NCBI GenBank assembly: GCA_903871465.1
Contig: CAIQHB010000011.1
Location: forward strand, 1 to 41,830
Source: an uncultured Methanosarcinales archaeon
GTDB taxonomy: Archaea > Halobacteriota > Methanosarcinia > Methanotrichales > Methanotrichaceae
Direction: 5' to 3'
DNA: 41,830 nt
The translations under genes were made by a program, and so were the position numbers. The notes under the pieces are model-generated. The model ran no database searches. It saw only the letters and a list, made by a program, of their open reading frames with translations, and was not told the origin of the DNA. Positions 2,277 through 36,818 of the stretch are shown here, piece after piece (positions within the stretch are counted from its first letter, which is position 1; each line of letters begins with the position of its first letter).

Positions 2277-5200
2277 ATGATCATGGGTAATGACATCATC
2301 GACCGTATGCGGGCTGAGGAAACGCTGCGGGAGAGTGAGCTGAGGCTAAGGACTATTTTCGATACATCCAGTGCAGGAATAATAATAGTTGACACCGAAG
2401 GGCGGATCACGCAAGCCAACCATCGGCTGACAGAACTATTTGCATGCCCACTGGAATCAATGATCGGCACACCATATCCTGCTTTTATTCATCCTGATGA
2501 ACGCCGGGAGGGAGCAAATATCATGCAAGCGATGATGGAGAATACTACTGATACTATCTATACAGAGCGACATTACCTCCGGAGAGACGGAAGCAATTTC
2601 TGGGGATAAATAAGTGGTCGGCGGATGGTTGGGTCGAACGGTGAGTTCACAGGATTACTGGGTATCATATCAGATATCACTGACCGCAAGCGAGCTGAGG
2701 AGGAACTGCGATGGAAAACAGCGCTACTTGAAGCTCAGGTCGAATCCTCTTTGGATGGAATTCTAGTTGTAGACAGCCATGGGCAACGAATCATTACTAA
2801 TCAGCGGCTTTTAACCATGTGGAGAGTGCCTCAAGAGATCAGGAATCAGAAGAATGACGAGGCTCTTCTTCAGTACGTGGCAGGCAATACCAAGAACCCT
2901 GGCCAATTCCTTGCGAAAGTGATGTATCTTTACGATCATCAGGATGAAACCAGCCGGGATGAGATCGAATTCAAAGATGGTATGGTCTTGGATCGCTATT
3001 CTTCACCAGTAATCGGTGGAGATGGGAAATACTACGGTCGGATATGGACTTTCCGTGACATCACCGACCACAAACGAGCGGAAGATGCACTGCGGGAATC
3101 CGAACAACGCCTGGCGGATATCATTGATTTCCTGCCCGACGCCACATTTGCTCTGGACAAAGAAGCAAAGGTGATCGCTTGGAACAGGGCTATGGAAGAG
3201 ATGACCGGTGTGGATAGGAACGACATGATCGGGCAGGGAGACCATGAATATACAATTCCCTTCTATGGTGAACGAAGGCAACAGTTGCTGGATCTGCTCG
3301 ATAAAGATGACAAGGAGATCGTTTCCAATTATCAATATGTGCATAGGAAAGGAAATACTCTTTACGCCGAAACATTTACACCTGCATTGCAGGGCGGCAA
3401 AGGGGCATATGTCTGGGCGACGGCAGGACCGATATTTAATTCACGGGGAATAGAATAGGAGCCATTGAGTCGATCCGCGATATCACTGAGCGCAAACGAG
3501 ACCAAGAAGAACTTAAAAACAACCTGAGATTCTTAGAAACACTGATCAATACAATCCCTAGCCCAATTTTCTTCAAAGATAGACAAGGCCGATACATGGG
3601 CTGCAACGATGCCTTTGCCAGGCAAATCGTTGGTATACCTAAGGAGAACATAATCGGTAAGTCTGTATTCGAATTGCCGGAAACGATCCCTCCTGACCTG
3701 GCCGATAGGTATTACGAGCAGGACCAGAAGCTATTCCGAGAGTTGGACGTCCAGGTATACGAGAAGCCGGTGCAGTGCGCGGACCGAGTAAGGCGAGATT
3801 TTCTCTTTACCAAGGCGCCCTTTAACAATTTTGCAGGCGAGGTGGCGGGCATCGTTGCAGTGATGCTGGACATAACCGAGCGTAAGCGCGCAGAAGATAA
3901 GTTGTATGAATCCAGGGACTACCTGGATAAGATAATCAATTCCATAGGTGATCCCATATTCGTCAAGAATCGGCTGCATCAGTTTGTTTTGGTGAACGAC
4001 GCATTTTGTGCATTATTGGGCCACAGTTTTGAAGAGTTCATTGGAAGGACCGACTACAATTTCCTTCCAGCGGAGCAAGTTGCCGTTTTCTTGGAGAAGG
4101 ATGAGCAGGTCTTTGAGACGGGAAAAGAGAACTTGAATGAAGAAAATATTACTGGTTCCGACGGGATCGATCGCACCATAATAACCAAGAAGACATTGTA
4201 TACGGACACTTCCGGGAACAAGTTTATTGTGGGAATCATCCGAGATATAACCGAACGCAAGCGTGCGGAGGAGAAGCTGCGGGAGTCGGAGCAAGAGAAG
4301 GCGGCAATCTTGGGCGGCTTAAGGCACGTTGCTGTGGAGTACTTGGACCCAAGCCTGCGCATCATCTGGGTCAATAAGGCCGTGCAAAAGTTCCTCGGAT
4401 TATCGATGGACGAACTGCGGGGAAAGCGCTGTTTCGAGATCCTCCTGGGCCTGAAGAAGCCTTGTCCTGGATGCACGGCATTGAAAGCTATCGAGACGGG
4501 TCACTCCCAGGAGGGAGAGCTAGTGACCCCAGATGGCAAGACCTGGATATCTCGCGGCTCTCCTATCAAGGATTCCGACGGCATTGTCAAAGGCGTAGTC
4601 CATGTGGCCTTAAATATCACCGAGCGCAAGCGGACAGAGCAAGAGCTGCAACAAACCAATCAGGATCTGGAAATTGCCATTGAACAGTCCAATGAATTGG
4701 CCAGGCAGGCCAGGAAGGCTAATGCTGCAAAGAGCGAATTCCTGGCCAACATGAGCCACAAGATTCGCACTCCCTTGAACGGGGTAATTGGCATGACCGG
4801 ACTGCTGCTGGATCTGGATTTGAATACCAAACAGCTTGAATATGCGGAAATCGCCCATGTCAACGGCGAGATGCTTCTAACACTCATCAACGACATCCTG
4901 GACTTCTCTAAAATCGAAGCCCGCAAACTGGAGCTGGAAATCCTGGACTTCGATCTGCGCTCAATGCTGAAAGATACTGCAGATCTCCTGGCCATCGGCG
5001 CTCATGAAAAAGGGCTGGAGCTGGTCTGTCTGGTGGAGCCCGCAGTTCCGTCGCTTCTGCGCGGAGATCCGGTAAGGCTGCACCAGATTCTAGTCAACCT
5101 GGGAAACAATGCCGTGAAGTTTACTGAGAAGGGCGAGATAGCCATCCGCGTCCGCCTGGAAAGCGAGGACGAACGAAATGCCACAATTCGCTTCGCAGTT

Positions 5201-14803: not shown

Positions 14804-15253
14804 TGAAGCTCTCGTGGCAAGTTATCTTACTGCTTGTCTACCAGATGGATGCGAAACAAGTTGAAATAGCTTTAGGCTTTAACGAGAAAATGCGTTGAGA
14901 TAAATCCATCGGTTCAAAGCCAGGCAACCAGTCGAACGAGCGAAAGGGTGTTGGGATAGCAGAGGCGTCTGCATCTATATGAAGATTAACGAGGGGGGGC
15001 AGGAGCCAGGGATATGTGAGCTGCATTAGATATGGGGCCAGGATCATTGCTAGGTATAATTCATTTCTCGTGAGGTTGCCCTCAAAGCCCTTGTGAAGAC
15101 TCGGTCGCTTGCGGCCCCGTGCGGGAGCGCGAGTGATTGACGCATATTAAGATTGGTTAAAATCTAGTGCAGATGTAAAGAATTCAGGGGCGCAGCAAAC
15201 AGGCCGGAAGGATTATAGGGGTGCGATCAACTATCTTTTCTTCAGGAGGGTTT
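14804..15253. other. Intergenic between the EVE nuclease and gajA
   Basis: It presumably carries the divergent promoters of both genes. ATATTAAGATTGG near 15144 is a weak TATA candidate for gajA. A short open piece (MDAKQVEIALGFNEKMR, 14842-14895) looks like the end of a lost gene. A short GC-rich repeat copy F (CCCCGTGCGGGAGCGCGAGT) lies at 15116-15135. Confidence 0.4.
15116..15135 (+). repeat. GC-rich intergenic repeat, short copy F
   Basis: Only the core GTGCGGGAGCGCG is kept, resembling GCGTGCGGGAG of the other copies. It stands out against AT-rich flanks. Confidence 0.35.
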
Positions 15254-17050
15254 ATGGAAGGAAAACCGAAATATAGTGGGATCAAACTTACGGAAGTTCG
15301 CATCAAAAATTTTCGGTCACTACGAGATGTATTTATCGATCTAGATTGGCTAACAGTGCTTATCGGAGAAAATAATTCTGGAAAAACAAGTTTCTTGGAT
15401 GCGCTCTTTGCATCGATTGGTTCAGGAAGGCATGCTGTTTCTGTGGACGATATCTTTTTGGCGCTCGAAGAAAAGAAGGTCCCAAAAGATAGAGAAGCAA
15501 TTATAGATATCATAATACGCCCTACGGATGATGATGGCAAAATAATCTCTACATTCCCAGAAGGAAGTTTTTGGTTAGAATTATGGGGGGAAGGAATATC
15601 ACAAGATGATCTTGAAAATGATTTTGTGGGAATTCGAAGCCAAATAAAATGGGATTCAACAAAAGGAGAATATGCGATCATAAGAAATTTTCTGAGAGAT
15701 CTGGAAAGCGGCCCTGAATGGTCAAACTCAGAAACAAAAAACTCAATTTCATTCACTCAAATAGAGCCAATTGGCCTCTATCTGTTGGATGCGAAACGAG
15801 ACATAAAAGATGAACTGCAGAATCGTAATTCCTTCTGGTCTAAAATGGTATCAGATCTGGATCTTGATGACACCTCAATAGACAAGTTCGAAAAAATACT
15901 AACAGATCTCAATGAAGATATCATCTCAGGCAGCCCAGTCCTCTCTCATGTCCAAGACCATTTAGATGAATTATATAAAACAATTGGTGGCAACAAAGGC
16001 AGCGTGGCAATAACTCCGGTTCCACGACATTTGAGAGATCTGAGTAATGGAATGGACATAAGCTATGCCACGAAGGATGCTCAAAGATTCCCTCTGTCGA
16101 GGCATGGTATGGGAACACGAAGTCTCGCTGCGGTATTGACTTTTAGGGCATATACAACATGGCGTCAAACACATTCTGATAGAGAGAAAGTTCATACAAT
16201 GTTGGCGTTAGAAGAACCCGAATCTCATCTTCACCCGCAAGCTCAAAGAGCCCTTTTTATTCAAATAGATGCCATCCCAGGCCAACGTATTATTAGTACT
16301 CATTCCCCGATAATCGCGAGCCAAGGAAAGATAACTCAACTGCGACATTTCTACAAAGAAGGGGCCTACACTAAGATTTCGCGAATAGACCAGTCCATTT
16401 CCAGAGACGATGCGTTGCGAATAGAGCGAATGGTTCTAAGTACGCGCGGAGATCTCCTATATGCCCGCACAATTATTCTTTTCGAGGGGGAGCAAACAGA
16501 AGATCAGGCATTACCGGTCTTCGCCGAAAAATTTTGGCATCTTCATCCAAATGCACTAGGAATAACGATGGTTCCTGTAGGCGGTCTGAATTACCTGCCA
16601 TTCCTCGTGTTAGCCACGGATCTGAGAATCCCGTGGTACATTTTTTCAGATGGAGAGGATAATGCAGCAAATGCCGTTAATAGTTGCCTTAAGAAATTAT
16701 CCATACCATTAGACACACCGAGATTTATCAAAATTCCCGAGGGGAAAAATTTCGAAAAATATATATCTAATGACGTATATAAAAGCGTATTGATCGATAT
16801 GATAATTGAGGCGAACGCAGATAACGAACGCCACAAAGAAGCGCTCCAGAAGGAATGGCAGTTGAAATCGAATCCATTGGAAGATATTGCTTCTGAGCTA
16901 AAAAGAGATAAGACAAAATACGGCAAGCTTATCGCTGAGGCCATAACGAGCATGCCACAAGAGGAGTTAAGATTCCCAGCTCCAATAAGAAAACTATTTG
17001 AAGAAATATCTAATGAGTTCGATTCTAAGAAACGCGAGGCCATTATCTAA
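15254..17050 (+). CDS. gajA: Gabija anti-phage protein GajA (OLD-family ATPase-TOPRIM nuclease)
   Basis: 598 residues from ATG 15254, which has AGGAGGG 4 nt upstream; GTG 15221 has no such site. The N-terminal ABC/SMC-type ATPase shows Walker A GENNSGKTS (38-46), the signature region SRHGMGTRSLAAVL (~283-296), Walker B LALEEPESHLHPQ (318-329) and the His switch STHSP (~348-352). The C-terminal TOPRIM has the acidic ILFEGEQTE (Glu ~411) and FSDGEDNA (~465-471). In Gabija, GajA is a nucleotide-sensing, sequence-preferring DNA-nicking nuclease that assembles with GajB and degrades phage DNA when NTPs fall. The stop overlaps the gajB start by one base, so the pair is translationally coupled. DNA is clearly AT-richer than the core genes downstream, suggesting transfer. 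Confidence 0.88.
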   Translation: MEGKPKYSGIKLTEVRIKNFRSLRDVFIDLDWLTVLIGENNSGKTSFLDALFASIGSGRHAVSVDDIFLALEEKKVPKDREAIIDIIIRPTDDDGKIISTFPEGSFWLELWGEGISQDDLENDFVGIRSQIKWDSTKGEYAIIRNFLRDLESGPEWSNSETKNSISFTQIEPIGLYLLDAKRDIKDELQNRNSFWSKMVSDLDLDDTSIDKFEKILTDLNEDIISGSPVLSHVQDHLDELYKTIGGNKGSVAITPVPRHLRDLSNGMDISYATKDAQRFPLSRHGMGTRSLAAVLTFRAYTTWRQTHSDREKVHTMLALEEPESHLHPQAQRALFIQIDAIPGQRIISTHSPIIASQGKITQLRHFYKEGAYTKISRIDQSISRDDALRIERMVLSTRGDLLYARTIILFEGEQTEDQALPVFAEKFWHLHPNALGITMVPVGGLNYLPFLVLATDLRIPWYIFSDGEDNAANAVNSCLKKLSIPLDTPRFIKIPEGKNFEKYISNDVYKSVLIDMIIEANADNERHKEALQKEWQLKSNPLEDIASELKRDKTKYGKLIAEAITSMPQEELRFPAPIRKLFEEISNEFDSKKREAII

Positions 17051-18915
17051 TGACAATTCAACTTTCTAATACCCAGAAGCTTATCGTTGAACATGATTAC
17101 GGTCCTTTGCTAGTTGTGGCTGGGCCTGGTTCAGGAAAAACTCGGGTACTAACAGAACGTATAAGACGCCTTCTTAATGAAAAAAATGAGCATTTTCGTA
17201 TCCTTGCTCTGACATTTACTAATAAAGCTGCAAATGAGATGAAGGAACGTTTAAGCGACTTGCGAAATATAGAGAAACGAGCATTCATTGGAACTCTTCA
17301 TAGTTTTTGCATGGAAGTACTTTCAAATAGAGGCAAAGCAGTTGGTGTCGAGAGGCTGCCAAATATCTTTGAATCATATCAAGATCGCAAGCAGGTCTTA
17401 CTGCAAGCCACTATGGAAGATCCCGTCCTAAGCCAAATAATCCTGAGATACTCAGATAAGAATTCCAGAGAAAAGTTGCTGAATCAGTGGCTAGAGATGA
17501 TCGGTTCCGCCAAAAACCAACTCATGCTTCCAGAAATGATGGAGAATGACACCGATAAGAGAATTTATGGAGCGTATAATGATAGTCTGCATGCTTTGAA
17601 CGTCTTGGATTTCGATGATTTGTTGCTTCTCACTTATCGTCTATTTCAAGAACGTCCGAAAATTGCGGACTTCTATCGACGCCAATATCGCTATATTTGC
17701 ATCGATGAAGCACAAGACCTAAATGAAGCTCAATATCAAGTTCTGAGGGCTCTCTGTGGATCTGAACATCGAAACGTAGTGATGGTTGGAGATCCAAAGC
17801 AGGCAATTTTTGTTTGGAACGGCGCAAATCCAAAGTACCTTGATTTATTTGAACGCGATTTTGGAGCTACAAATATTTCTTTAAACGAGAATTTCCGATC
17901 TTCTAGAGTAGTAGTTAAAGCTGCAAAAACGCTTATTCCTGAATACGAGATAGATGGGCAGCCAGCTCTCACTGGATCGATAAGGCTGATAGAAGGAGAA
18001 GACGAACAGCATGAGGCAATATCGGTTATTAATTGCATTCGAAAGCTCATTTCTTTAGGCCATAAAGACATTGAAGGACCAATTACACTTGAGCGATGTG
18101 CATTTCTTGGAAGAAATCGATACGCTTTAACATGTGTTGAGAACGAATTAAAGAACCAAAGGATGCCTTATTTCAAGCAGCTTTCCGCTCAGCATGAAAG
18201 CGAATCTGATTTATTGCGCGATTTCGAGGTAGGTCTTCGTATATTGGCCAATCCATCAGACAAATTGCATATAAATATGCTCCTAAAGAGGTGGAAGATT
18301 AGTGCTGAAAATATTGTCATGGATTCCACTAACGATCCAGAAATAATTTTATCCAACATAAATAAATATGTAACCGACAAGGATCACAGCACTGTTTTAT
18401 CCGCATTAATTTTGATGAATCGTAATAAACATAATCTTGATTTTGCAAAGGCAATGGATTATTTGGATGAATACTCTAAAAGTAAAATTGATCAAGAGGA
18501 ATGCGCACTAATTAGTGAAGATATTATAATTTGGAGAAAACACTGGGATTCATTCTTGCGTGCCCAACCAGGAGGCCAAAATAGTCTTTCAACTTTCCTC
18601 GGCCAAGTAGCATTGGGAACTACTCAGCAACCAAGACAGGAAGGTGTAGCTCTACTCACGGTGCATTCATCAAAAGGATTGGAATTTGACGTCGTTGTGA
18701 TTGTAGGAATGACCGAAGGAACGTTTCCAGATTACCGAGCTAAGGGACCTGCTCTGCAAGAAGAAAAGCGGAACATGTTCGTAGCAATAACGAGATCTAG
18801 GCGCGTGTTATTACTTTCATATCCCAGAACAAAAGTAATGCCCTGGGGAAGTGTGAGAAAGCAAAAACCATCGCGGTACTTAATTGATTTAGGGCTTATA
18901 AATAAGGCAGATTAA
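17050..18915 (+). CDS. gajB: Gabija protein GajB (UvrD/Rep-type SF1A helicase)
   Basis: 621 residues. All superfamily 1A motifs are present: I AGPGSGKT (24-31), Ia ALTFTNKAANEM, II ICIDEAQDLNEAQ, III VMVGDPKQAIFVW, IV LNENFRSS, V TVHSSKGLEFDVVVI, VI MFVAITRSRRVL. GajB senses DNA ends from phage replication, and its ATP hydrolysis depletes nucleotides and so de-represses GajA. The length is greater than the ~500 residues I recall for the Bacillus cereus type protein, so it looks like a fuller UvrD fold. As a lone gene it could be read as a repair helicase, but the one-base overlap with an OLD-TOPRIM partner makes Gabija the better call. Confidence 0.88.
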   Translation: MTIQLSNTQKLIVEHDYGPLLVVAGPGSGKTRVLTERIRRLLNEKNEHFRILALTFTNKAANEMKERLSDLRNIEKRAFIGTLHSFCMEVLSNRGKAVGVERLPNIFESYQDRKQVLLQATMEDPVLSQIILRYSDKNSREKLLNQWLEMIGSAKNQLMLPEMMENDTDKRIYGAYNDSLHALNVLDFDDLLLLTYRLFQERPKIADFYRRQYRYICIDEAQDLNEAQYQVLRALCGSEHRNVVMVGDPKQAIFVWNGANPKYLDLFERDFGATNISLNENFRSSRVVVKAAKTLIPEYEIDGQPALTGSIRLIEGEDEQHEAISVINCIRKLISLGHKDIEGPITLERCAFLGRNRYALTCVENELKNQRMPYFKQLSAQHESESDLLRDFEVGLRILANPSDKLHINMLLKRWKISAENIVMDSTNDPEIILSNINKYVTDKDHSTVLSALILMNRNKHNLDFAKAMDYLDEYSKSKIDQEECALISEDIIIWRKHWDSFLRAQPGGQNSLSTFLGQVALGTTQQPRQEGVALLTVHSSKGLEFDVVVIVGMTEGTFPDYRAKGPALQEEKRNMFVAITRSRRVLLLSYPRTKVMPWGSVRKQKPSRYLIDLGLINKAD

Positions 18916-22203: not shown

Positions 22204-23004
22204 TCAAATTGGCCCGTCCAATAGCTCGCTCGCATTTTTCCAGAGCACAGCATCCTTATCCGCCTCACCGAGCTCCAGGCGCTCTAAAATTGCCGCTGCT
22301 CGGCCCGGCTCTTCCCAGGGGTAATCGCTGCCGAATATGACTCTTTCCGGACCGATGTCCGCTATCAGCTCCATGATCTCTTCCGGGGTCAAGTAGAAGG
22401 AGACGTAAGCGGTATCGAAATAGACATTTCTGCCCGCGGGCAAAAGATGCCGTCTCACACCATCCCACATGCGCAGGCCTCCCAGATGAGCCAGCTCCAG
22501 ACGAAGGTCGGGGTAGCACTGGATGACTCTGGCAAAACGCTCCGGCGTCCCGAAGATCTCAGCTCTATCCAGAGGATCTCGCCCTGCATGAGTCACAAGA
22601 ATCATCCTTCTCTCGATCAGCGCTTCGTAGAGTCTGCCGCAGCCTGGATCATCGGGAAAGACCTCCTGCAGCAGGGGCATCATCTTGACGCCCCGAACTC
22701 CGCAAGCAGCAAGCCGGTCCAGCTCCCCATCCAGGTTTTCCATAAAAGGATGGACGGCTCCAAAGGGAATCAGGCCGTCTCCTGAGACGGATAGGATCCA
22801 GTCGTTGAGGCTGGACACATCCTCCCGGCCTTTGGCCAGGGGCAGGAGAACCGACCTGGATATCCCTGAACCGCTCATGCGACAGCGAAGGTCCTCGGGC
22901 GCACCGGTTCCCGGCACCTCTACCTTCAGCTTTTTCTTCGCGGCGGGAAAGATCTTGGCCGCCACCCTTTCCGGATAGATGTGAGTATGAAAATCGATAA
23001 TCGT
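22204..23004 (-). CDS. Metal-dependent amidohydrolase (TIM-barrel), non-ATG start
   Basis: The metal-binding motif DFHTHIYPE (22995-22969) lies upstream of the first GTG (22965), so the true start must be before it. Upstream codons read ATA (23007), ACG (23004), ATT (23001), ATC, GAT, TTT, CAT. If ACG were ATG the product would begin MIIDFHTHIYPE, the usual start of the family, and GGGG lies about 8 nt before it. Other family features are GVKMMPLLQEVF, MILVTHAGRDPLD, RLELAHLGG and RVIFGSDYPWEEP (metal/catalytic Lys, His, His, Asp), as in Amidohydro_2/TatD-like hydrolases. About 266 residues. It overlaps or abuts the top6A stop, so it is the last gene of the Top6 operon. Substrate unknown. Confidence 0.8.
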   Translation of the reverse strand, partial: TIIDFHTHIYPERVAAKIFPAAKKKLKVEVPGTGAPEDLRCRMSGSGISRSVLLPLAKGREDVSSLNDWILSVSGDGLIPFGAVHPFMENLDGELDRLAACGVRGVKMMPLLQEVFPDDPGCGRLYEALIERRMILVTHAGRDPLDRAEIFGTPERFARVIQCYPDLRLELAHLGGLRMWDGVRRHLLPAGRNVYFDTAYVSFYLTPEEIMELIADIGPERVIFGSDYPWEEPGRAAAILERLELGEADKDAVLWKNASELLDGPI

Positions 23005-24131
23005 TATATTATCCCCATCTCGGTAAGCCTCTCCGGCAGATAGGTCTTGGTCACATAATCCAGGCCCTTGCCGGCAAAAGCCTGCTGCTCTGCCTTCTTC
23101 TTGAGATCAATCTGCAGCTTGATCTGCTTATCCCAGTAAGGCGTGTTGAAACGTGGATCGGTCAGCTCGCTGCGCAATGCCTGCATATCCTGATCGGTGA
23201 GCTTGTCTGTGGAGAGATTATAGTCCACGATATCGCTGGGCTGCACCCCCACGAAGCGCGCCTTCGGGGTAACCAGGTGCTCGGAGAGGTGAGCGCTCTT
23301 GATGGCACCGTAGGCGATGCTGGCAAAGATGCGATAGGACCAGGGATCGCCGTCTGTGAAGACGACTACGGGAATATTCAGCTCCGTGTTGAGCCGTTTT
23401 ATGATGCGTCGCGTGGACCTGGCCGGCTGACCCTTGATATGCACCAGGATGGCATTGTACTCTTCGTCGAAGCCGTTCTCTATCAGCCGGGCATACATTC
23501 CGCCGGTCTCAATGGCTATGACCATCTTGGCATCATGGCTCAGGAACTCGACGTTATCCACGTTGAAGGGTATCTGGTATCCAGCCTCACCCACATCCTC
23601 CTGGCAGTGCATCTCGCGCTCGCCGCGTCGTGTCTGCTCTCTGAGCCGCAGCGGCCCGAATACCGCCGCCCCGTCCTCCTCCGGCCGGACGTGAAAGTCC
23701 TCCCGGTGAAGATTGGTTACGATCTCCAGGTCTTCGATCAGATGGTCGCTCTCCGACTGCTCGTGGAATTTCGCTATGTCCCAGTTCTCAGAGATATAAT
23801 AGATCTCTCTTAATGTCGAGCCGCGATTGTTCTTGAGGTGCTCCTTGATGAGCAGTTCGATGAGGTGGACGGTCTTGAGAAGAGTCTTGGCTCCGCGCAC
23901 GGTCTTCACGCTGCGCGTCGTCTCCTGGTCTCCGTAAACCCAAACATCTTCTTTGGTGGAGAACTCGATATTGCCTTTGGTTCTTGAGGGTAAAGTGATG
24001 TGCGGCACTATGCCCTGCAAGAACTGATTGTAAAGATCCTCTGCGAGGCCCGTAAGGTTCTCCTGAGCCTTTTTTGATTGGGCAGTCTTTTCCAATTTTT
24101 TGGAAGCTTTTTCCTCTTCAGTCTTCGCCAT
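23004..24131 (-). CDS. top6A: DNA topoisomerase VI subunit A
   Basis: 375 residues, full length. The winged-helix/CAP domain contains [10 protein letters not shown] (109-117) with the catalytic Tyr that forms the 5'-phosphotyrosyl bond. The TOPRIM domain has Glu208 in AIETGGM and Asp260/Asp262 in FTDGDPW, which hold magnesium. Together with subunit B it relaxes and decatenates DNA by ATP-dependent double-strand passage and is the main replicative decatenase of methanogens. ATG 24131 lies 4 bp after the top6B stop. The N-terminal ~30 residues are a Lys/Glu-rich extension. Confidence 0.97.
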
Positions 24132-24135
24132 TTTA

Positions 24136-25971
24136 TTAGATCACCCTGGCTCCTGTGACAATCTCTGCCTCCAAACCCTCCACCACCGGCTCTTTCCTCG
24201 GCCCGCCATCAGAGTGAACCGTATAGCTGAGAATGGTGCTCTCCCCCGGACCGACGGATAACTTCCAGTGGTGGTCGTAGCCATCTCCCATAGGGATGAC
24301 TTTGGCCATAGGGGATACAGCGACTGCCTCCTCCCCCAGCACTTCATGAAGCTGGAAGGATCGCACCAGATCGCTGTGATTTTCTACCATGATCCTGATG
24401 GCCAAATGGCCATCTTGCTGTACCAGGCGTCTATAGACGAGAAGGTTGCCCATGATCTTGGCTACTACCGGCCCGATATCGGGCTCCGGCTTTTCTAAGA
24501 CATCTGAGAGCTTCTTCGCGATGCGAGGCAGGATCATTCGAATTATCTCCTCTTTCTCCCGTCTATCAGATAGCACGCTCTGCCGGCTCAGGTAGCGGCG
24601 CAGCTTTCGCGATACCTCTTTCAGCCCCAGGTCGATCTCCGTAAGGATCTCCGGCATATCGGCCAGTGCATCTTTGCTCTCGGATGTGAAGGGAATATTG
24701 GTAGATGCGATATGCACCAGCAGCACCGCTGGCCCAACCGGGACTCCGCTTCCTGTAGGCTGGCTCAGGGAGTAGTTCTTCCAGGCGACGCTCTCCACGG
24801 CATGAGTTATGGCGCAGGCGCCCTGCTGGTAGACGAGGGGAACGCGATTGGCAAAGCGCAGAATCTCTAGGCGGCTCTCCTTCGCCAGCTCTCCACCATA
24901 TCCCAGGCCCACCTCTACCAGGAACGGATTCCCGGAGTAGACGGAAACGGGCCGGACTGTTGTGGCGATGAAGTCCAGCCGAAACTCCTTCTCCAGACCG
25001 GCCTTGATCAGGTCTTCGCCGATTGGTGACAGACAGTCGACTGGAGGCGACTTGACTTTGATCTGTTTGAAGGCCATAAGCAGTCGCGTTGCCTCTGCGT
25101 GTCCAAGACCTGTAGGCAGCTCTTCCGGGTCCAGGCCAGCCCGATTGCATAGCTCCTGAGCCGATATGGTGCCTATGGACGAGAAAGTCTCCTTCAGGAA
25201 GACGCGCAGTTTCTTCTTGTCGGTATAACGCAGGAGCTTGATCAGCTCCCCAAGCTCGATTCCGTCTGGATGAGGCTGAATGGCATAGGCTTTCTTGGGC
25301 AGACTCTCGGTCACCCTCTCGAAGACCTCCACGTTGCCTTCCGGCTCCACCAGCGTCAGACGAGCATGGGGATTGACGATGGCCGTGCTCTTGAGAGAAC
25401 CTAAGACGGACTGTCGCCGGCTGCGCACATAAGAGCCCTCCATCTCCAGCTCCACTCGCGTGCCTCGCGGCCTTTCCCAATCCACCTCTTCCGACTTGAG
25501 GATCTCAGGTTCATTTTTGGCCGTGTTTATCAGCAGCTCGCAGTAATAGGCGGGCCTGTCCGGAGCGATCTTGGAGATGACCTTCGTGGGCTTGCCGCTG
25601 GTAAGCTGCGAATAGAGTACCGCTGCGGAGATGCCGATGCCTTGCTGGCCCCGGCTCTGGCGCAGAGTATGAAAACGCGAGCCGTAGAGCAGTTTAGCAA
25701 AGACCCGAGGAACCTCCTCCGGCACAATTCCCGGCCCGTTATCCTCCACGATGACCCGGTAATAATCACCGCTCTTTTTTATCTGCACAAAGATGTCCGG
25801 CAGTATCCCTGCATCCTCGCAGGCATCGAGAGAATTATCCACGGCCTCTTTAACGCAGGTGATCAGGGCGCGGGGTGCTGAATCGAATCCCAGAATCTGA
25901 CGGTTTTTCTCAAAAAATTCAGCTACGGAGATGGCTTTCTGTTGCTTGGCCAGCTCCTCAGCGATTTCCAT
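24136..25971 (-). CDS. top6B: DNA topoisomerase VI subunit B
   Basis: 611 residues. The GHKL ATPase has the N-box [12 protein letters not shown] (~45-56), the Mg-site DNGPGI (~78-83) and the lid [11 protein letters not shown] (~109-119). The H2TH segment ([19 protein letters not shown]) and the transducer domain follow. ATP binding dimerises the subunit and drives cleavage by subunit A. The C-terminal ~90 residues ([20 protein letters not shown]) form an Ig-like tail known from Methanosarcina-type Top6B. The gene lies 16 bp after the upstream RAM protein gene. Confidence 0.97.
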
Positions 25972-25987
25972 AAAATGGGAAAAAGGG

Positions 25988-26218
25988 CTAGAGCTCAGCC
26001 CCGACTACTGTCTGTGTGGCTGTGACGTTGTCTATCTCACGGATTACGTCGACAAGCTTGTTGAGCATGCTCAGGCCTTCAACCTCAATGATAACTACGA
26101 AGTCGAACTCGCCGAATACATGGTAGACATCCTTGATTCCATCAATCTCCTGCAAGGCATTGTAGACGGTCTTCTCCTGTCCCGGCACTACCTTCACCAT
26201 CGTTACTCCAATTACCAT
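25988..26218 (-). CDS. Stand-alone Lrp/AsnC effector (RAM) domain protein
   Basis: 76 residues from ATG 26218, with GGTGA 6 nt upstream. The whole protein is one RAM/ACT-like fold: [20 protein letters not shown], then [18 protein letters not shown] and VTATQTVVG. It lacks the helix-turn-helix of full Lrp regulators, so it may bind an amino acid and assemble with full-length Lrp proteins. As first gene of the operon RAM-top6B-top6A-amidohydrolase it could report metabolic state to the unit, but that is inference. Confidence 0.85.
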
Positions 26219-26250
26219 ATTGATTCACCCATGTTATAGAGCCTCCGCAC

Positions 26251-26260
26251 ATTATATAAA
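26251..26260 (-). promoter_or_regulatory. TATA box of the Top6 operon
   Basis: TTTATATAAT on the minus strand, 33-42 bp before the ATG at 26218. An A-rich BRE-like stretch (GAAAAG) lies upstream. Confidence 0.6.
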
Positions 26261-26265
26261 ACTTT

Positions 26266-27099
26266 TCAGCTCTTCTTGGTGAGGTTAAAGGTCTCCACCT
26301 CTTCATCATTCTCAGACTCTGGCCAGGCACTCAGGGATTCGCTCTTCTTTCCCTTGCTCTTTCTTGTAGCCTGCTTCTCTTCCGGTTCGGCCTTCGCGGG
26401 CGTTGGCAGCGATTCGCTTTCCGGAGTTGCACATTCTTCGATCTTCGCGGGCTCTGGGCCATTCTTGGCCAGCTCAGCCTTCAAAGAGGAGAGAGCACGA
26501 AGCGTCATCTGTCGGTAATGCTCGACATCTGTGTGATAATGCTCCAGAGCCCTTTCGGCATCCTGGGGAAGCGCGACAGACGTCACCTTATCCGCAGTGG
26601 CAAATTCGCTGGACACTGGGATAGGCTTTGCATTCTTCAATGCATTCAATCGCTCCAATGTTCTGCGAGCGGTGTCCATTACCCACAGGTTTCTAGTAGC
26701 CTCGTCCACCTGCTGGATGGACTCGGCGCGCAGAGATATGATGATATTCCCGTCTTCGGTTTTATAGAGGTTGGGCTTGCCCACGACAGCCACAAAAGCT
26801 GGAGCCTCCATATTGGCCAGTACTTGAGCTGCTTCCGGCTGGTACTGGCCGGCGTAGATCAGTATGCTGCTCGTCGGGTCGACCAGCCTCCCTCGCCAGT
26901 ACTCAGTGTCTCCTCCGATATCATCCTTCTCAATCAGAGTAGCGACTATGAAGACCCTGTTGCATTTTGCTCCGGTAGGAGTGAGGAGATATTGAGGAGC
27001 ATACTGGTTTTGTTCCTCTCCATCCCGGAAGGAGTAGTTCGAGCCCTTCAGCTCTTCGGCAAAAACCCTGCGCGCCACTTCTCGAGAAAATCCTGCCAT
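26266..27099 (-). CDS. RPA-associated protein (COG3390-type OB-fold protein)
   Basis: 277 residues: N-terminal MAGFSREVARRVFAEELKGS, then an OB-fold core (CNRVFIVATLIEKDDIGG, YWRGRLVDPTSSILIYAGQY, PAFVAVVGKPN), a helical region, and a charged Lys/Glu/Pro-rich tail. This matches the small RPA-associated proteins encoded next to archaeal replication protein A (rpa3-associated or RPAP), which form part of a heteromeric ssDNA-binding complex. ATG 27099 follows the rpa stop by one base, so they are co-translated. Confidence 0.85.
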   Translation of the reverse strand: MAGFSREVARRVFAEELKGSNYSFRDGEEQNQYAPQYLLTPTGAKCNRVFIVATLIEKDDIGGDTEYWRGRLVDPTSSILIYAGQYQPEAAQVLANMEAPAFVAVVGKPNLYKTEDGNIIISLRAESIQQVDEATRNLWVMDTARRTLERLNALKNAKPIPVSSEFATADKVTSVALPQDAERALEHYHTDVEHYRQMTLRALSSLKAELAKNGPEPAKIEECATPESESLPTPAKAEPEEKQATRKSKGKKSESLSAWPESENDEEVETFNLTKKS

Positions 27100-27100
27100 T

Positions 27101-28330
27101 TCAGACCGCCTCCACTTCCGCCGTCAGCTCGTCCACCCGGGATTCCGTCACCGGTGGGACATCGTTTATGGTCTCCACCAGAAGATAGCGATCAACTCGC
27201 GGTCCAATGATGCTGAAATACCGTCCCATCAATTTGCTCTCGATAAGGCTGCGCACAACTTCGTGATCTAGAGCCTCCATGGCCATCTGCTTGGCTTCAT
27301 CCAGAGTCAGGCCTACCAGGCGCTCCGTGGTCTCCCTATTGATGAGGACGTCCTGCACGCGACGGCCATCATCCAGCACCGCTTTGATGCGCAGATCATA
27401 GGTGCCCTCTACCTTTCCATGCTCGCTGCAGACGCCCTTAGCCAGGGAGCGTTTGCAGACGGGACAGCGCTTGATGAGGCCCGAGCCCTTCTGCACATCC
27501 ACCAGGGCGCCCGAGAACTCCGCCGCCTGAGAACCGATCTCCACATCGACATCCAACGGTTCTATCTGGCTGGTGCGGTTCAATTTCACGCTGAACCTGC
27601 CCTGGAACTCATCTGTGACGAGGTTACGAAGAAGGTAGCTTTTGCCTTCCTCCAGGTTGGACAGATCTGCCTTGGCCCATTTCACAAACTTTATGGAACC
27701 CGTCTCATCTCCTACCAAACCGGACTGGGAGATGGCATCGCTGGTTGTCTCCCAGAGCTGAGCCACCTTGACCTTCAGATCAACCCATTGCCCTGGTTCC
27801 GTGATCTCAACCACTTTCACCGCTTGAGCGGCTCTGCTGGCGGGCTTCGCCTCCACCTCTTTCTCCAGCGGCTCAATCTGGCTGGTGCGGTTCAATTTCA
27901 CGCTGAACCTGCCCTGGAACTCGTCCGTGACCATTCTCTTCAAGAGATAGCTTTGGCCCAGTTCCAGATTGGGTAGCTCGGACTTGGCCCACTTGACAAA
28001 CTTCATCGATCCTGTGCTGTCACCGATAAGTCCGGTCTGAGAGATAGCCTCAGTCGCAGGTTCCCAGAGATCCAGGACCTTGATCTCCAGGTCCACCCAC
28101 TTGCCGGCTTCCTTGATCTCTGAGATCTTGACCTTCTCAGAGCTGGCCCTGACCTGGGGCATTATGCCGTGCTCTTTCAGGAAATAGTTCAAAACCGATC
28201 TTCGGGCCTCACTTTCCGGTACACGAAAATCATCGATAAGCTTCGTCAGGCGAGACGCGATCTCTTCATCAGGGACTTCGATCTTCTGATCCCTGAGGCG
28301 AGCCGATATCTGATCAACCAGTTCTTTCAT
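27101..28330 (-). CDS. rpa: Replication protein A, two OB folds plus zinc finger
   Basis: 409 residues, an ssDNA-binding protein for replication and repair. Order: N-terminal helical domain (DQISARLRDQKIEVPDEEIA), OB1 (~75-155), OB2 (~175-255), a zinc-finger OB with CPVCKRSLAKGVCSEHG (C-x2-C-x8-C-x2-H), and a C-terminal part. OB1 and OB2 are strikingly alike (both end FQGRFSVKLNRTSQIEPL). The promoter region (28331-28400) is shared with the divergent nop5 gene. The partner gene follows after one base. Confidence 0.92.
   Translation of the reverse strand: MKELVDQISARLRDQKIEVPDEEIASRLTKLIDDFRVPESEARRSVLNYFLKEHGIMPQVRASSEKVKISEIKEAGKWVDLEIKVLDLWEPATEAISQTGLIGDSTGSMKFVKWAKSELPNLELGQSYLLKRMVTDEFQGRFSVKLNRTSQIEPLEKEVEAKPASRAAQAVKVVEITEPGQWVDLKVKVAQLWETTSDAISQSGLVGDETGSIKFVKWAKADLSNLEEGKSYLLRNLVTDEFQGRFSVKLNRTSQIEPLDVDVEIGSQAAEFSGALVDVQKGSGLIKRCPVCKRSLAKGVCSEHGKVEGTYDLRIKAVLDDGRRVQDVLINRETTERLVGLTLDEAKQMAMEALDHEVVRSLIESKLMGRYFSIIGPRVDRYLLVETINDVPPVTESRVDELTAEVEAV
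27564..27610 (+). repeat. 47-bp exact direct repeat within rpa, copy 1 (in OB2)
   Basis: Starts ATCTGGCTGGTGCGGTTCAA and ends CCCTGGAACTC. It is identical to 27876-27922 over 47 bp by my reading. Confidence 0.85.
27876..27922 (+). repeat. 47-bp exact direct repeat within rpa, copy 2 (in OB1)
   Basis: The same 47 bases as copy 1, 312 bp apart, encoding the end strand of each OB fold. The spacing is a multiple of three, so recombination between copies would remove one OB fold in frame. Confidence 0.85.
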
Positions 28331-31877: not shown

Positions 31878-32996
31878 ATGGAGATTAAGTACATCATCGA
31901 CGACGCCCTGGGCAGATCTGAGGCGGAGAGCAGGATTAAGCCTTCGAGCATAATCCAGAGCGATGAAGAGCTGGTGTCGGTTCTGGAAGAACTGACCACA
32001 GTCATCCGGGTCATTGGATGTGGCGGTGGCGGCTCGAATACCATCGACCGCCTGGCAGAATGCGGCATACAGGGAGCCGAGCTCTATGCCATCAACACCG
32101 ATGCCCAGCACCTTCTGCATATCAATGCCGACCGGCGCTTCCTCATCGGCAGACGCACGACGCGAGGCCTTGGGGCAGGAAGCCTGCCGGCCATCGGTGA
32201 AGAGGCAGCACAGGAGGACATCGACGAGATCAAGGCTGCGGTAGAAGGAGCGGATATGGTATTCGTCACTTGCGGCCTGGGAGGCGGCACGGGTACAGGA
32301 GCGTCTCCTGTTGTGGCGGAAGCCGCCCGCGAAGCAGGCGCTCTGACCATTGCCATCGTCACCATTCCCTTCAGCGCAGAAGGGTCCATCCGAATGCAGA
32401 ATGCGGAAGCAGGCCTTAAGAGGCTGAGGGAGGTTTCGGATACCGTAATCGTTGTGCCCAACGACCGGCTTCTCGATGTGGTGCCTAACCTTCCACTTCA
32501 AGCGGCCTTCAAAGTGGCCGACGAAGTTCTGATGCGTTCCGTCAAAGGCATAACGGAGCTCATCACCAGACCCGGCCTCATCAATCTGGACTTTGCCGAT
32601 GTCAGAACAGTTATGACTAACGGCGGTGTGGCCATGATCGGCATGGGAGAAGCAGAAGGCGAAGAGAAGGCAAGGGACTCCGTTGCGAAGGCTCTCCGTA
32701 GCCCCCTCCTGGATGTAGATGTATCAGGAGCAACCTCCGCTCTGGTGAATGTGGTGGGAGGGCCGGATATGACCATCACCGACGCCGAAACCGTGGTAGA
32801 TGAGGTCTACCAGAAGATCAATCCTGAAGCTCGCATAATCTGGGGGGCGCAGATAGACCAGAACCTCGAGCATGCCCTGAGAACCATGCTTGTTGTGACG
32901 GGTGTATCGTCTCCGCAGATACTGGGAAAGGATCAGAGCAAGCGCGTGACATCCAGGCACGGCATAGATTTCCTCGCCCGCAGATCGCGTTACTGA
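31878..32996 (+). CDS. ftsZ: Cell-division GTPase FtsZ
   Basis: 372 residues. The nucleotide-binding signatures are GCGGGGSNT (48-55) and the tubulin signature [11 protein letters not shown] (133-143). The T7 loop ([15 protein letters not shown]) completes the GTPase site of the next subunit, and [19 protein letters not shown] follows. It polymerises into the archaeal division ring. An N-terminal extension of about 40 residues (charged) precedes the fold, as in archaeal FtsZ1. The C-terminus is short and basic. ATG 31878 lies behind TTGGGGGG. CetZ is excluded by the FtsZ-type signature and T7 loop. Confidence 0.95.
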
Positions 32997-33210: not shown

Positions 33211-33477
33211 ATGCTACAGCGGCACCTGGTCATACTCAAGCAGGTAGTAGAGAACGAGCCCATCGGTATCCTCAAGCTGGCGGAAGAGACAAAGATCCCC
33301 AGCCACAAGGTGCGCTATTCACTGCGTGTATTGGAACAGGAGGGCCTGATCAGAGCAACAGCACCGGGTGCAGTGACCACCAATCAAACCATATCATTTC
33401 TGAGAGAGCTGGACTCCATGATTGAAGATCTGTCCAAGAAGGCAGAGGATCTAAAGGAGATCAAGATAACGAGGTAA
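33211..33477 (+). CDS. Winged-helix regulator heading the ligase-like/SplB unit
   Basis: 88 residues from ATG 33211, which has GGTGA 7 nt upstream; GTG 33193 is an alternative, and the longer frame from 33028 is not supported. Winged-helix core: ILKQVVENEPIGILKLAEET, then HKVRYSLRVLEQEGLIRATA and GAVTTNQTISFLREL, ending in a Lys/Glu-rich helix. TGATATTAATT near 33168 may be the TATA element. The stop is directly followed by the ATG of the ligase-like gene, so translation is coupled and the protein may regulate the unit. Similar small regulators occur widely in methanogens. Confidence 0.75.
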   Translation: MLQRHLVILKQVVENEPIGILKLAEETKIPSHKVRYSLRVLEQEGLIRATAPGAVTTNQTISFLRELDSMIEDLSKKAEDLKEIKITR

Positions 33478-34779
33478 ATGCTCTACTGCCAAATTGCCCA
33501 GGCCCTGCAAGACATCTCCCAGGCTCCACGCAGCCGGAAGGTCGATCTGACGGCACGCCATCTGGCAGATCAAGACCCAGAGATGCTCTGCCCAACAGTG
33601 CGGCTCCTTTTGGGCGAGCTCTGGATGCCCTGGGAAGAAAGGGAGATGGGAATAGGCCCCGAAGCGCTGATGACGGCACTGGCCGAGGTATCCGAGGACG
33701 ACGTTCCCCTGCTTCGAGAAGGAATGGGTGAGATGGGGTTGGTCGCGGAGGCGGCACTGCGCCGGAAAGGGCAGCACTCGCTTTGCAGCGAGCCCTTGCA
33801 GGCCCTATCTGTCTACGAGAGACTGAGACGCATCTCTCGCATGAGTGGCCATGAATCCGAACAGCGGAAGAATGCCTTCCTGAGAGGCCTATTCTTGGAG
33901 GCAACCCCCCAGGAGGGAAAGTACATCGCCCGCACAGCTCTCAGAAATATGCTGGCCGGCGTCGGGCATAAGACCATGCTTGCCGCTCTAATCCAGGCCT
34001 TACACTGCGATCAAGACCGGGTCTTAAGGGCTTACAACCTCTTGCCCGATCCGGGAAGTATCGCATGCATGGCCCTCAATTCCGGCCTGGAAGGAATAAG
34101 CGTACAGCCCAAGACCCCCATCAATTTCATGATAATTCGCTCCTGCAGGGCACCAGAATTCAGATGCGAGAGCCGGGTGTTTGCCTATCTTCCCAAGTAT
34201 CCAGGCTTAAGGGTGCAGGTTCATAAATCAAAAGCTGAAGCCCTCATATTCACTTCCAGGCTTCGCAACATCGCCATGGACCTGAACGGCCTATCACAGT
34301 CGCTCAGCGCCATAGAAGAAGACTTCATTGTAGATGCAAATCTCATCGGCTTTCAGGAGGGCAAGATATGCAGCCAGGCTGAGATGGTGAAGTACATCAA
34401 TCGAGGCCGCCTTTCTCGCAGAAGCCAAATATCGCCCGCGCTCTTGGTCTACGACCTGATCTATCTGGCAGGGGAGGACGTTTGCAACCGCACCTATCTG
34501 GAGAGACGAAAGAGACTGGTAGAAACACTTGGGGGACCCAAAGCCCTGCCCTTCCGGGGCATATCTCCCGCTGAAGAGAAGCTTCTGGAGAACAAGGGGG
34601 CAGTTCAAGATTACCTCGCCCTGGTGAGCGAGAACGGAGGCAAAGGGTTGATGGCGCGCGATCTCCAGGCCGCTTACTGCCCGGGTTTAGGCTCCGGATA
34701 TGACTTCATAATTAGAGCCGAGAAGACAATAGCTGCCATAATCATGTCACCTGAAAGCCCTGGCAAGAGATCAGGATGA
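33478..34779 (+). CDS. Degenerate ATP-dependent DNA-ligase-like protein, no OB domain
   Basis: 433 residues. Residues 1-~185 follow the DNA-binding domain of archaeal/eukaryal LigI-type ligases (VYERLRRISRMSGHESEQRK, FLRGLFLEATPQEGKYIART, GVGHKTMLAAL). The adenylation domain follows, but its motifs are altered. Motif I reads PKYPGLRVQVHK (KYPG, 240-243) instead of KYDG, keeping Lys240. Motif III reads VDANLIGF in place of DGEIV, losing Glu. Motif IV is GKGLMARD in place of EGLMxK. The motif V lysines are not evident. YDLIYLAGEDVCNRTYLERR matches the usual inter-motif segment. The protein ends right after motif V, lacking the C-terminal OB domain that encloses DNA. It probably binds nicked or damaged DNA without sealing it. 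The frame is clean, so it is under selection rather than decaying. Confidence 0.75.
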   Translation: MLYCQIAQALQDISQAPRSRKVDLTARHLADQDPEMLCPTVRLLLGELWMPWEEREMGIGPEALMTALAEVSEDDVPLLREGMGEMGLVAEAALRRKGQHSLCSEPLQALSVYERLRRISRMSGHESEQRKNAFLRGLFLEATPQEGKYIARTALRNMLAGVGHKTMLAALIQALHCDQDRVLRAYNLLPDPGSIACMALNSGLEGISVQPKTPINFMIIRSCRAPEFRCESRVFAYLPKYPGLRVQVHKSKAEALIFTSRLRNIAMDLNGLSQSLSAIEEDFIVDANLIGFQEGKICSQAEMVKYINRGRLSRRSQISPALLVYDLIYLAGEDVCNRTYLERRKRLVETLGGPKALPFRGISPAEEKLLENKGAVQDYLALVSENGGKGLMARDLQAAYCPGLGSGYDFIIRAEKTIAAIIMSPESPGKRSG

Positions 34780-34780
34780 G

Positions 34781-35698
34781 TTGGGAGCATATCCGACGCA
34801 GATGATTCTCAGACCATTTGACCCCTGGAACAGCCCGTTATGCACCTGTCCACCCAAGATGAGCCTTAATCCCTATACAGGATGCCCGCATGGCTGCATT
34901 TACTGCTATGCCTCGTCCTATATCCCCCGCTTTCAAGAATGCCGTCCCAAAGTCGATCTTCTAAGACGGCTGGAAAAAGAATCGGCAAAGATCGAGCCTG
35001 ACACACTCGTGGCCATGTCTAACAGCTCTGACCCCTATCCGCCAATGGAAAAGGAGTTCCGCCTGAGCCGAGGATGCTTAAAGATATTGAAAAGAAGGGA
35101 TTGCCGTGTTCAGGTGGTGACAAAATCAGATTTAGTGGCAGAGGATGCGGATTTGCTGGCCGGCATGAGGGCCACGGTGGCGGTTACTGTAACCACACTG
35201 AAGGACGCGATTTGCCGAAAGCTGGAACCAGGAGCTGCATTGCCCGGAAAGCGCCTTGATGCCATGACGATCCTGGCGGATTGGGGTGTCCCCGTCTCGG
35301 CCCGCATCGACCCCATCATACCCGGCATAAACGATTACGAGATTGAGGATTTAGTCTATGCAGTAGTTCAAGCCGGGGCCAGGCACATAGTCTCATCCAC
35401 CTATAAAGCCCGGCCTGGCAACGTGAAAAGGATATCATCCACATTCCCGGATGCGGGAGTTGTCTTGAAGACGCTGTTCCAAAAAGGCAGCCGAGAGTCG
35501 GGAAGCCTCCTCCTCCCCAGAGAGTTGAGATGCGATCTGATGCAGAAGGTAAAAGATAATGCGAGCAAGATGGGCGTCGCCAACTCCACCTGCCGGGAAG
35601 GTTTCCCATCGGACCCAGGCACAAACTGCGATGGGTCGCATCTGTTGCCGCCCTTGCATTTCAGAGATTCACCCCGCACCAAATCGCAGTCTATTTAA
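34781..35698 (+). CDS. SplB-like radical SAM protein (COG1533)
   Basis: 305 residues from TTG 34781; ATG 34802 is an alternative start. The radical SAM cluster motif is CPHGCIYCYA (C-x3-C-x2-C, Cys 35/39/42) after LNPYTG, typical of the SplB/Rv2578c group related to spore photoproduct lyase. Further features are MSNSSDPYPPMEKEFRLSRG, VQVVTKSDLVAEDADLLAG, and SARIDPIIPGIND. Members cleave SAM to a radical; most substrates are unknown, and spore photoproduct lyase repairs a thymine dimer. It starts one base after the ligase-like gene's stop, so a shared DNA-repair role is a reasonable inference. The C-terminal ~40 residues are poorly conserved-looking. Confidence 0.85.
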   Translation: MGAYPTQMILRPFDPWNSPLCTCPPKMSLNPYTGCPHGCIYCYASSYIPRFQECRPKVDLLRRLEKESAKIEPDTLVAMSNSSDPYPPMEKEFRLSRGCLKILKRRDCRVQVVTKSDLVAEDADLLAGMRATVAVTVTTLKDAICRKLEPGAALPGKRLDAMTILADWGVPVSARIDPIIPGINDYEIEDLVYAVVQAGARHIVSSTYKARPGNVKRISSTFPDAGVVLKTLFQKGSRESGSLLLPRELRCDLMQKVKDNASKMGVANSTCREGFPSDPGTNCDGSHLLPPLHFRDSPRTKSQSI

Positions 35699-35981: not shown

Positions 35982-36818
35982 ATGAGGAAAGTTCTGGCTA
36001 TTACCGTGGCCCTCATGATGGCAGCTATCATTCTAATGCCTGCTCTGGGGTACACTGATCAAAGTGCAGGAAATCAATCCTACACAGCAACATCTGCAGG
36101 AAGAGTCAATTACAGCTTGTCAACAGGAGTTCCCGCTCATAATCTGACAGAAAATATGGTGATAAACAAGTTTTCGGTTCATACACCATCCGTTCAGAGC
36201 ACCAGGGTTGCCTATTCATTTAAGCAAGGTACGGTCACGCCTTACTCATTCAATCTCGTAGGAGTCAATAATGCCCAGAGAGAGGGCTATCAAAACAAGA
36301 AGGCGACCGCAGTCTTAGGCAGCGATGCAAAGACCGCAGAGACTACTGGCGTGCCCGCAACTGCCACCACTCCGGCCGCTGCCGCCACACCCGTTGTTGA
36401 GACTCCCGTCGCCAATGTGACAGTTGCGCCCGTTGTAGCTGCACCCAAATTCACCATCGAAGGCATGGCCTTCAATGATATGAATGGAAACGGCACCATG
36501 GATAACAACGAAACCGGCCTCGCCGACTGGACTGTTAACCTGGAGCAGCCAGCAGGAATGGTCGTCAAGAGCGCTAACACCACCATGGATGGCAAGTTCG
36601 TCTTCTCTGATCTGTCTGCTGGAGAGTATGTCGTCTCCGAAGTTCTCAAGACGGGCTATAAACTTGTGTCCCCGGCTGAGGGCAAGTTCACAGAAAGCAT
36701 TACTGATAAGAGCGTAACAGGATTGGTATTCGCCAACCAGGCTGTGGCACCAGTTGTTGTACCAAGCAACGTCACAACTCCTGACAATACCACACCGATT
36801 AACGCAACATCAGCCTGA
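35982..36818 (+). CDS. Surface protein with an SdrD B-like (calcium-binding) domain
   Basis: 278 residues, AAAGGAGG 8 nt before ATG 35982. Signal peptide MRKVLAITVALMMAAIILMP. An N-terminal region with Ser/Thr-rich strands (to ~110) is followed by a Thr/Ala/Pro/Val-rich linker (VPATATTPAAAATPVVETPV). Then comes one SdrD B-type repeat (IEGMAFNDMNGNGTMDNNET, then GEYVVSEVLKTGYKLVSP) in which DMNGNGTMDNNE is the calcium loop, and a second Thr/Pro-rich tail. Probably a cell-surface or sheath protein. The linker is a likely site of O-glycosylation, by analogy. Confidence 0.8.
   Translation: MRKVLAITVALMMAAIILMPALGYTDQSAGNQSYTATSAGRVNYSLSTGVPAHNLTENMVINKFSVHTPSVQSTRVAYSFKQGTVTPYSFNLVGVNNAQREGYQNKKATAVLGSDAKTAETTGVPATATTPAAAATPVVETPVANVTVAPVVAAPKFTIEGMAFNDMNGNGTMDNNETGLADWTVNLEQPAGMVVKSANTTMDGKFVFSDLSAGEYVVSEVLKTGYKLVSPAEGKFTESITDKSVTGLVFANQAVAPVVVPSNVTTPDNTTPINATSA

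Follow-up and report, generated by a model that had tools for sequence, protein, structure and literature searches.

A DNA ligase I-like protein with a degenerate active site is conserved alongside normal DNA ligase I in Methanotrichales

The ATP-dependent DNA ligase I (LigI) of archaea and eukaryotes (PDB entries 3rr5, 3gde, 2cfm, and 9dfa) is the closest described counterpart of a ligase-like protein, here called LIGL, that is encoded in the window, the whole stretch of 41,830 nucleotides analyzed here. LIGL shares with these enzymes a two-domain arrangement of a DNA-binding domain (DBD) and a nucleotidyltransferase (NTase) fold over almost its full chain, with TMq values of up to 0.86. Unlike LigI, the LIGL family lacks the active-site motifs, the PIP-like segment is deleted, and the OB domain is either missing or without the motif VI lysine. 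Many enzyme classes are known to include pseudoenzymes. Searches of the literature found no paper reporting a second ligase or an inactive one in Methanosaeta or Methanothrix, nor any account of a dead DNA ligase that is present throughout a lineage and coexists with a live one. The gene downstream of LIGL encodes a radical SAM protein that resembles the spore photoproduct lyase SplB (TIGR04070, PDB 4fhc) in its radical SAM barrel (TMq 0.56 to 0.58) and has its best profile match in the PA0069 and Rv2578c families (NF033668 and NF038135; 144.5 bits, E value of 4e-42, residues 26 to 203, including the CX3CX2C motif). Unlike SplB, it scores 19.4 to 20.4 bits against the lyase model (cut-off of 400) and belongs to a family with four additional invariant cysteines; it also falls under both curated cut-offs of the PA0069 and Rv2578c families (360 and 430, with 360 being that of NF033668).

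The window belongs to an archaeal genome of 3.13 Mb in 81 contigs that is 99.6% complete. Three genes on the forward strand had been described in a sequence-only reading as a unit with gaps of 0 to 1 bp. All three open reading frames are real, and the gene for an 88-amino-acid winged-helix protein (HTH; positions 33211 to 33477; Pfam CggR_N, E value of 2e-7, and HTH_24, E value of 1.2e-5) abuts the gene for the 433-amino-acid LIGL (positions 33478 to 34779) at a 0-bp TAA-ATG junction. The third gene (positions 34802 to 35698) encodes a COG1533-like radical SAM protein of 298 amino acids, the probable start of which is ATG 34802 (MILRPFDPW), common to its orthologs, and not TTG 34781; the second gap is therefore 22 bp rather than 1 bp. 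The LIGL frame is open throughout and clean, as had been stated. Conserved gene order supplies the context, with ftsZ upstream (positions 31878 to 32996, forward strand; TIGR00065, 449 bits) and a gene for an SdrD_B-domain surface protein (Pfam) downstream (positions 35982 to 36818, forward strand). Topoisomerase VI (subunits A and B) and a replication factor A are encoded about 4 to 9 kb upstream of ftsZ (positions 23004 to 28330), making this a neighborhood rich in DNA-metabolism genes. At positions 15221 to 18915, a gene for a 609-amino-acid ATPase with weak similarity to MADS3/PtuA (anti-phage) is directly followed by one for a UvrD/PcrA-like helicase, and the two look like a putative two-gene Gabija-type defense pair.

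Judged from its sequence, LIGL is predicted to fold like an archaeal DNA ligase I, but its active site is destroyed. The DBD (amino acids about 1 to 205; positions 33478 to 34092), which the sequence-only reading had recognized as retained, matches Pfam DNA_ligase_A_N over amino acids 5 to 171 with an E value of 4.6e-29, and the degenerate NTase domain (amino acids about 215 to 415; positions 34120 to 34722) matches DNA_ligase_A_M over amino acids 230 to 403 with an E value of 1e-14. Both are also present in the AF2 model, predicted with high confidence (pLDDT 90.3), which Foldseek aligned to archaeal DNA ligases with TMq values of 0.77 to 0.86. The best solved-structure matches were likewise archaeal DNA ligases, spanning residues 2 to 408 at 25 to 28% identity. 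The profile and structure comparison with LigI that had been suggested yields a predicted LigI fold with a degenerate active site. Against the curated DNA ligase I model TIGR00574, LIGL scores 115.9 bits, under the cut-off of 217.8. The window genome encodes two proteins with a ligase DBD, namely, LIGL and a normal LigI (563 to 564 amino acids, contig C4).

Catalytic motifs were compared between 48 LIGL orthologs and 16 LigI sequences; the catalytic residues of motifs I to V are intact in all 16 of the latter. In the degenerate motif I of the window LIGL (KYPGLR, amino acids 240 to 245; positions 34195 to 34212), Lys240 is kept and the aspartate is replaced by proline. The retained lysine, correctly seen in the window, is not a family trait, as this residue is lysine in 18 of the 48 orthologs, arginine in 21, and something else in 9; the aspartate is found in none. 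Degenerate motif III contains Ala287-Asn288 instead of Gly-Glu (positions 34336 to 34341). The stretch that includes motifs IV and V (amino acids 389 to 413; positions 34642 to 34716) has changed from glutamate to Lys389, lysine to Arg394, tryptophan to Asp409, lysine to Ile411, and lysine to Arg413. Throughout the family, the motif IV glutamate and the motif V tryptophan are missing (0/48 each, with aspartate replacing the tryptophan in 41/48), and of the motif V lysine pair, the first is found in 0/48 and the second in 1/48. Since the motif I aspartate, the motif IV glutamate, and the first motif V lysine are missing from every member, catalysis was lost across the LIGL family; the catalytic degeneracy proposed earlier is borne out, with the motif IV glutamate as a further loss in the window.

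The motif III glutamate, the motif V lysines, and the OB domain, named in the sequence-only reading as gone, are all missing in the window, but the glutamate is present in 23 of the 48 orthologs and the OB domain is kept in 12, none of which has the lysine of motif VI (RxDK). The absent OB domain and motif III glutamate of the window are lineage-specific losses inside the family. When mapped over the LIGL tree, the OB label accounts for 8 changes and the motif III glutamate for one; the OB domain was lost repeatedly. Remnants of it are found after the stop codon in L004 and in the intergenic region in L031, and L008 retains a shortened tail. Long, OB-bearing LIGL proteins (530 to 546 amino acids; L012, L005, L006, L013 to L016, L021 to L023, L027, and L030) occur beside OB-less forms within one genus. 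In L028 (genome G040; LIGL at positions 1501 to 2454), homology ends at residue 312 and the frame runs into unrelated sequence on a short contig, possibly reflecting a frameshift, a pseudogene, or an assembly chimera.

LIGL orthologs were found alongside a normal LigI in 49 of the 50 Methanotrichales genomes (11 genera), which represent the family and also the whole order as sampled, and in 33/33 high-quality genomes; the sole genome without one is 56% complete. They were detected by profile searches, whereas a single-protein scan of genome contigs gave 0 matches. With a 23-row profile, E values ranged from 1e-113 to 1e-189 in the family compared with 3e-89 or weaker for LigI elsewhere, and no LIGL ortholog was found by profile search among the other genomes of the class (238) or phylum (393). 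All of the LIGL sequences form a single clade (support 100/100) with a stem about 1.7 substitutions per site long; a possible attachment of this stem to the LigI of the order itself has a branch support of only 59/80.

LIGL is under purifying selection that is strongest on the DBD. In pairwise Nei-Gojobori comparisons, several of which have dS near saturation, pairs with dS above 0.5 gave dN/dS values of mostly 0.13 to 0.20 for the LIGL DBD, 0.16 to 0.36 for the LIGL NTase domain, and 0.11 to 0.17 for LigI, while the closest pairs (dS about 0.1) gave noisy values of up to 0.53. Relaxed selection, which the sequence-only reading had named as a result that would speak against it, was not found, as dN/dS is well below 1, though LIGL evolves at 1.5 to 2.7 times the rate of LigI. 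In every pair tested between the window genome and its relatives, the identity of the LIGL DBD equals or exceeds that of the NTase domain (e.g., 0.70 versus 0.58); in LigI, every pair except one shows an NTase domain conserved about as well as the DBD or better. A number of residues, including R42, G137, P190, N308, R394, and D409, are fixed in LIGL yet different in LigI, which points to new constraint and not to decay. Both domains of LIGL are on average more basic than those of LigI, with mean net charges of +0.6 versus -6.1 and of +4.4 versus +0.6; the DBD of the window LIGL itself has slightly more acidic than basic residues (27 D+E, 23 K+R). The PIP-like (clamp-binding) segment of the LigI DBD is deleted in 48/48 LIGL proteins, and the same region has drifted in the order's own LigI too. 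Only 7/48 retain the conserved arginine of the LigI DBD segment MRIGVGEG, a presumed DNA contact. With this arginine mostly lost and the clamp-completing OB domain often absent, DNA binding by LIGL may be weak or redirected.

Of 43 loci in which the winged-helix gene and LIGL are linked (10 of 11 genera), 42 have a spacing of -4 to +7 bp between the two. Its identity was read correctly, but it is not specific to the unit, because it is a single-copy gene found across the class, with orthologs in 49/50 family genomes and 205/238 class genomes. In 7 of 10 loci examined outside the family by homology groups and Pfam, it is located beside genes for an FAA hydrolase and glutamyl-tRNA synthetase (GltX). 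Given its class-wide presence and this position in Methanosarcinales-type loci, a role as a dedicated LIGL partner was rejected.

The third protein had been called an SplB-type radical SAM enzyme. Its radical SAM identity stands (Radical_SAM, E value of 3.9e-14; CX3CX2C motif CPHGCIYC, as expected of spore photoproduct lyase, at positions 34883 to 34906), but by curated score, at some 20 bits, the lyase assignment does not. There is no cysteine near the SSDPY segment, a putative equivalent of the SplB H-donor Cys140 region (Geobacillus numbering). Searching the PDB by sequence gave chance-level or generic matches and no close solved structure, and the nearest solved folds are spore photoproduct lyase and NifB (TMq 0.41 to 0.58), with NifB ranking equally high. 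Seven cysteines (C14xC16, C28-C32-C35, C264RE, and C276DG in the 298-amino-acid numbering) are kept in all 18 family members and 63 outside relatives; the four that are additional to CX3CX2C suggest an auxiliary Fe-S cluster. Relatives are encoded in 369 stretches, many of which belong to other archaea or to thermophilic bacteria, so that a restriction of the radical SAM protein to this order was rejected; the closest named matches are from Methanothrix/Methanotrichaceae. The archaeal and thermophile members (L154 to L218) have the signature FDPW...CxC...PYTGC.HGC.YCYA...CRE...CDG, and inspection by eye identified an XTPase-like neighboring gene in Archaeoglobales and a KH-domain-like one in Hadesarchaea-type genomes. 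Neither LigI nor LIGL was found in the flanks of the 63 loci outside the family, where neighbors were mixed and no consistent DNA-repair neighborhood was found.

A survey for linkage of the ligase-like and radical SAM genes, as the sequence-only reading had suggested, found them adjoining in 8 of 11 genera, so that the pair is conserved well beyond this strain. In 14 loci of the genus, they share a 4-bp ATGA stop/start overlap. That it is kept despite LIGL lengths varying from 407 to 546 amino acids points to translational coupling of the two genes in most of the genus. The linkage is incomplete, however: two genera (g8 and g11) have LIGL and no radical SAM ortholog, and in a third (g9) the three genes are unlinked, with HTH beside ftsZ, radical SAM beside the surface-protein gene, and LIGL elsewhere. 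The radical SAM gene is about 3.5 kb from LIGL in G032 and on another contig in G030. Because synteny extends over the entire block that starts with methanogenesis marker 8, includes ftsZ, and ends with the surface-protein gene, adjacency is weak evidence of joint function, and since two genera keep LIGL without radical SAM, joint action cannot be the sole role of LIGL; it is possible where the genes are coupled. The dedicated DNA-lesion repair unit proposed from the sequence is not upheld, given the class-wide HTH, the widespread radical SAM family with its low lyase score, and the linkage broken in g8, g9, and g11. In G046, from the thermophilic genus g9 (L118, positions 1782 to 2453 on the reverse strand and 4055 to 4939 on the forward strand), the relocated radical SAM gene directly follows a thioredoxin/NHL-repeat-like gene at a gap of 1 bp and is about 1.6 kb from an endonuclease V-like gene, with both families assigned by eye and not by a profile match.

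LIGL is probably, with somewhat better than even confidence, a pseudo-ligase kept as a noncatalytic duplex-DNA-binding protein. A copy of archaeal DNA ligase I would have lost its adenylation chemistry before the Methanotrichales genera diverged. It would be translated as the second cistron after the winged-helix gene, with an independent radical SAM enzyme encoded just downstream in most genera, and would bind duplex DNA through the ligase DBD and the basic face of the dead NTase domain, possibly with a preference for nicks or DNA structure. LIGL may then assist the normal LigI, compete with it, or serve to load other enzymes. It is also conceivable, though unlikely, that LIGL is a noncatalytic adaptor or protein-protein scaffold (e.g., for LigI, the clamp loader, or the winged-helix protein) for which DNA binding is dispensable; the deleted PIP-like segment and the mostly lost DBD arginine show that the old interaction surface is altered, and derived conserved residues fit such a role, but of the two halves it is the DBD that is conserved best, and LIGL is on average more basic than LigI.

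Delivery of the radical SAM enzyme by LIGL to nicks or lesions for SAM-dependent DNA repair, the model of the sequence-only reading, appears quite improbable. The adjoining genes, the ATGA overlap, and the place of spore photoproduct lyase among the nearest folds are in its favor; they are offset by the genera that lack the enzyme or the linkage, by the synteny of the whole ftsZ-to-surface-protein block, and by a radical SAM family that is widespread without LIGL, in mixed neighborhoods, and as close in fold to NifB. The more elaborate arrangement in which the duplicated ligase became a dedicated DNA-structure sensor, bringing a translationally coupled radical SAM enzyme with two clusters to DNA that is nicked or damaged, is a long shot that, if true, would have no described precedent. 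If LIGL were a functionally unimportant leftover of a LigI duplication, now in decay, this would account for the long stem and for the repeated OB loss, of which L004 and L031 carry remnants outside the gene; this reading is very unlikely and already largely refuted, as practically every member in the 11 genera has an open frame, dN/dS is well below 1, and derived residues are invariant. Least probable is another nucleotidyl-transfer activity, retained or gained through migrated residues: the motif I lysine of some members, including that of the window, and the motif III glutamate of others are compatible with it, but the motif I aspartate, the motif IV glutamate, and the first motif V lysine occur in none, and the motif I lysine is replaced in 30/48.

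As a pseudo-ligase, LIGL offers a natural experiment on which ligase features remain worth preserving once catalysis is gone, and DNA ligase domain matches in Methanothrix genomes need not mean a second ligase. Methanothrix is one of the main acetate-consuming methanogens; if LIGL binds nicks, it may regulate the sealing of Okazaki fragments or repair in such a methanogen.
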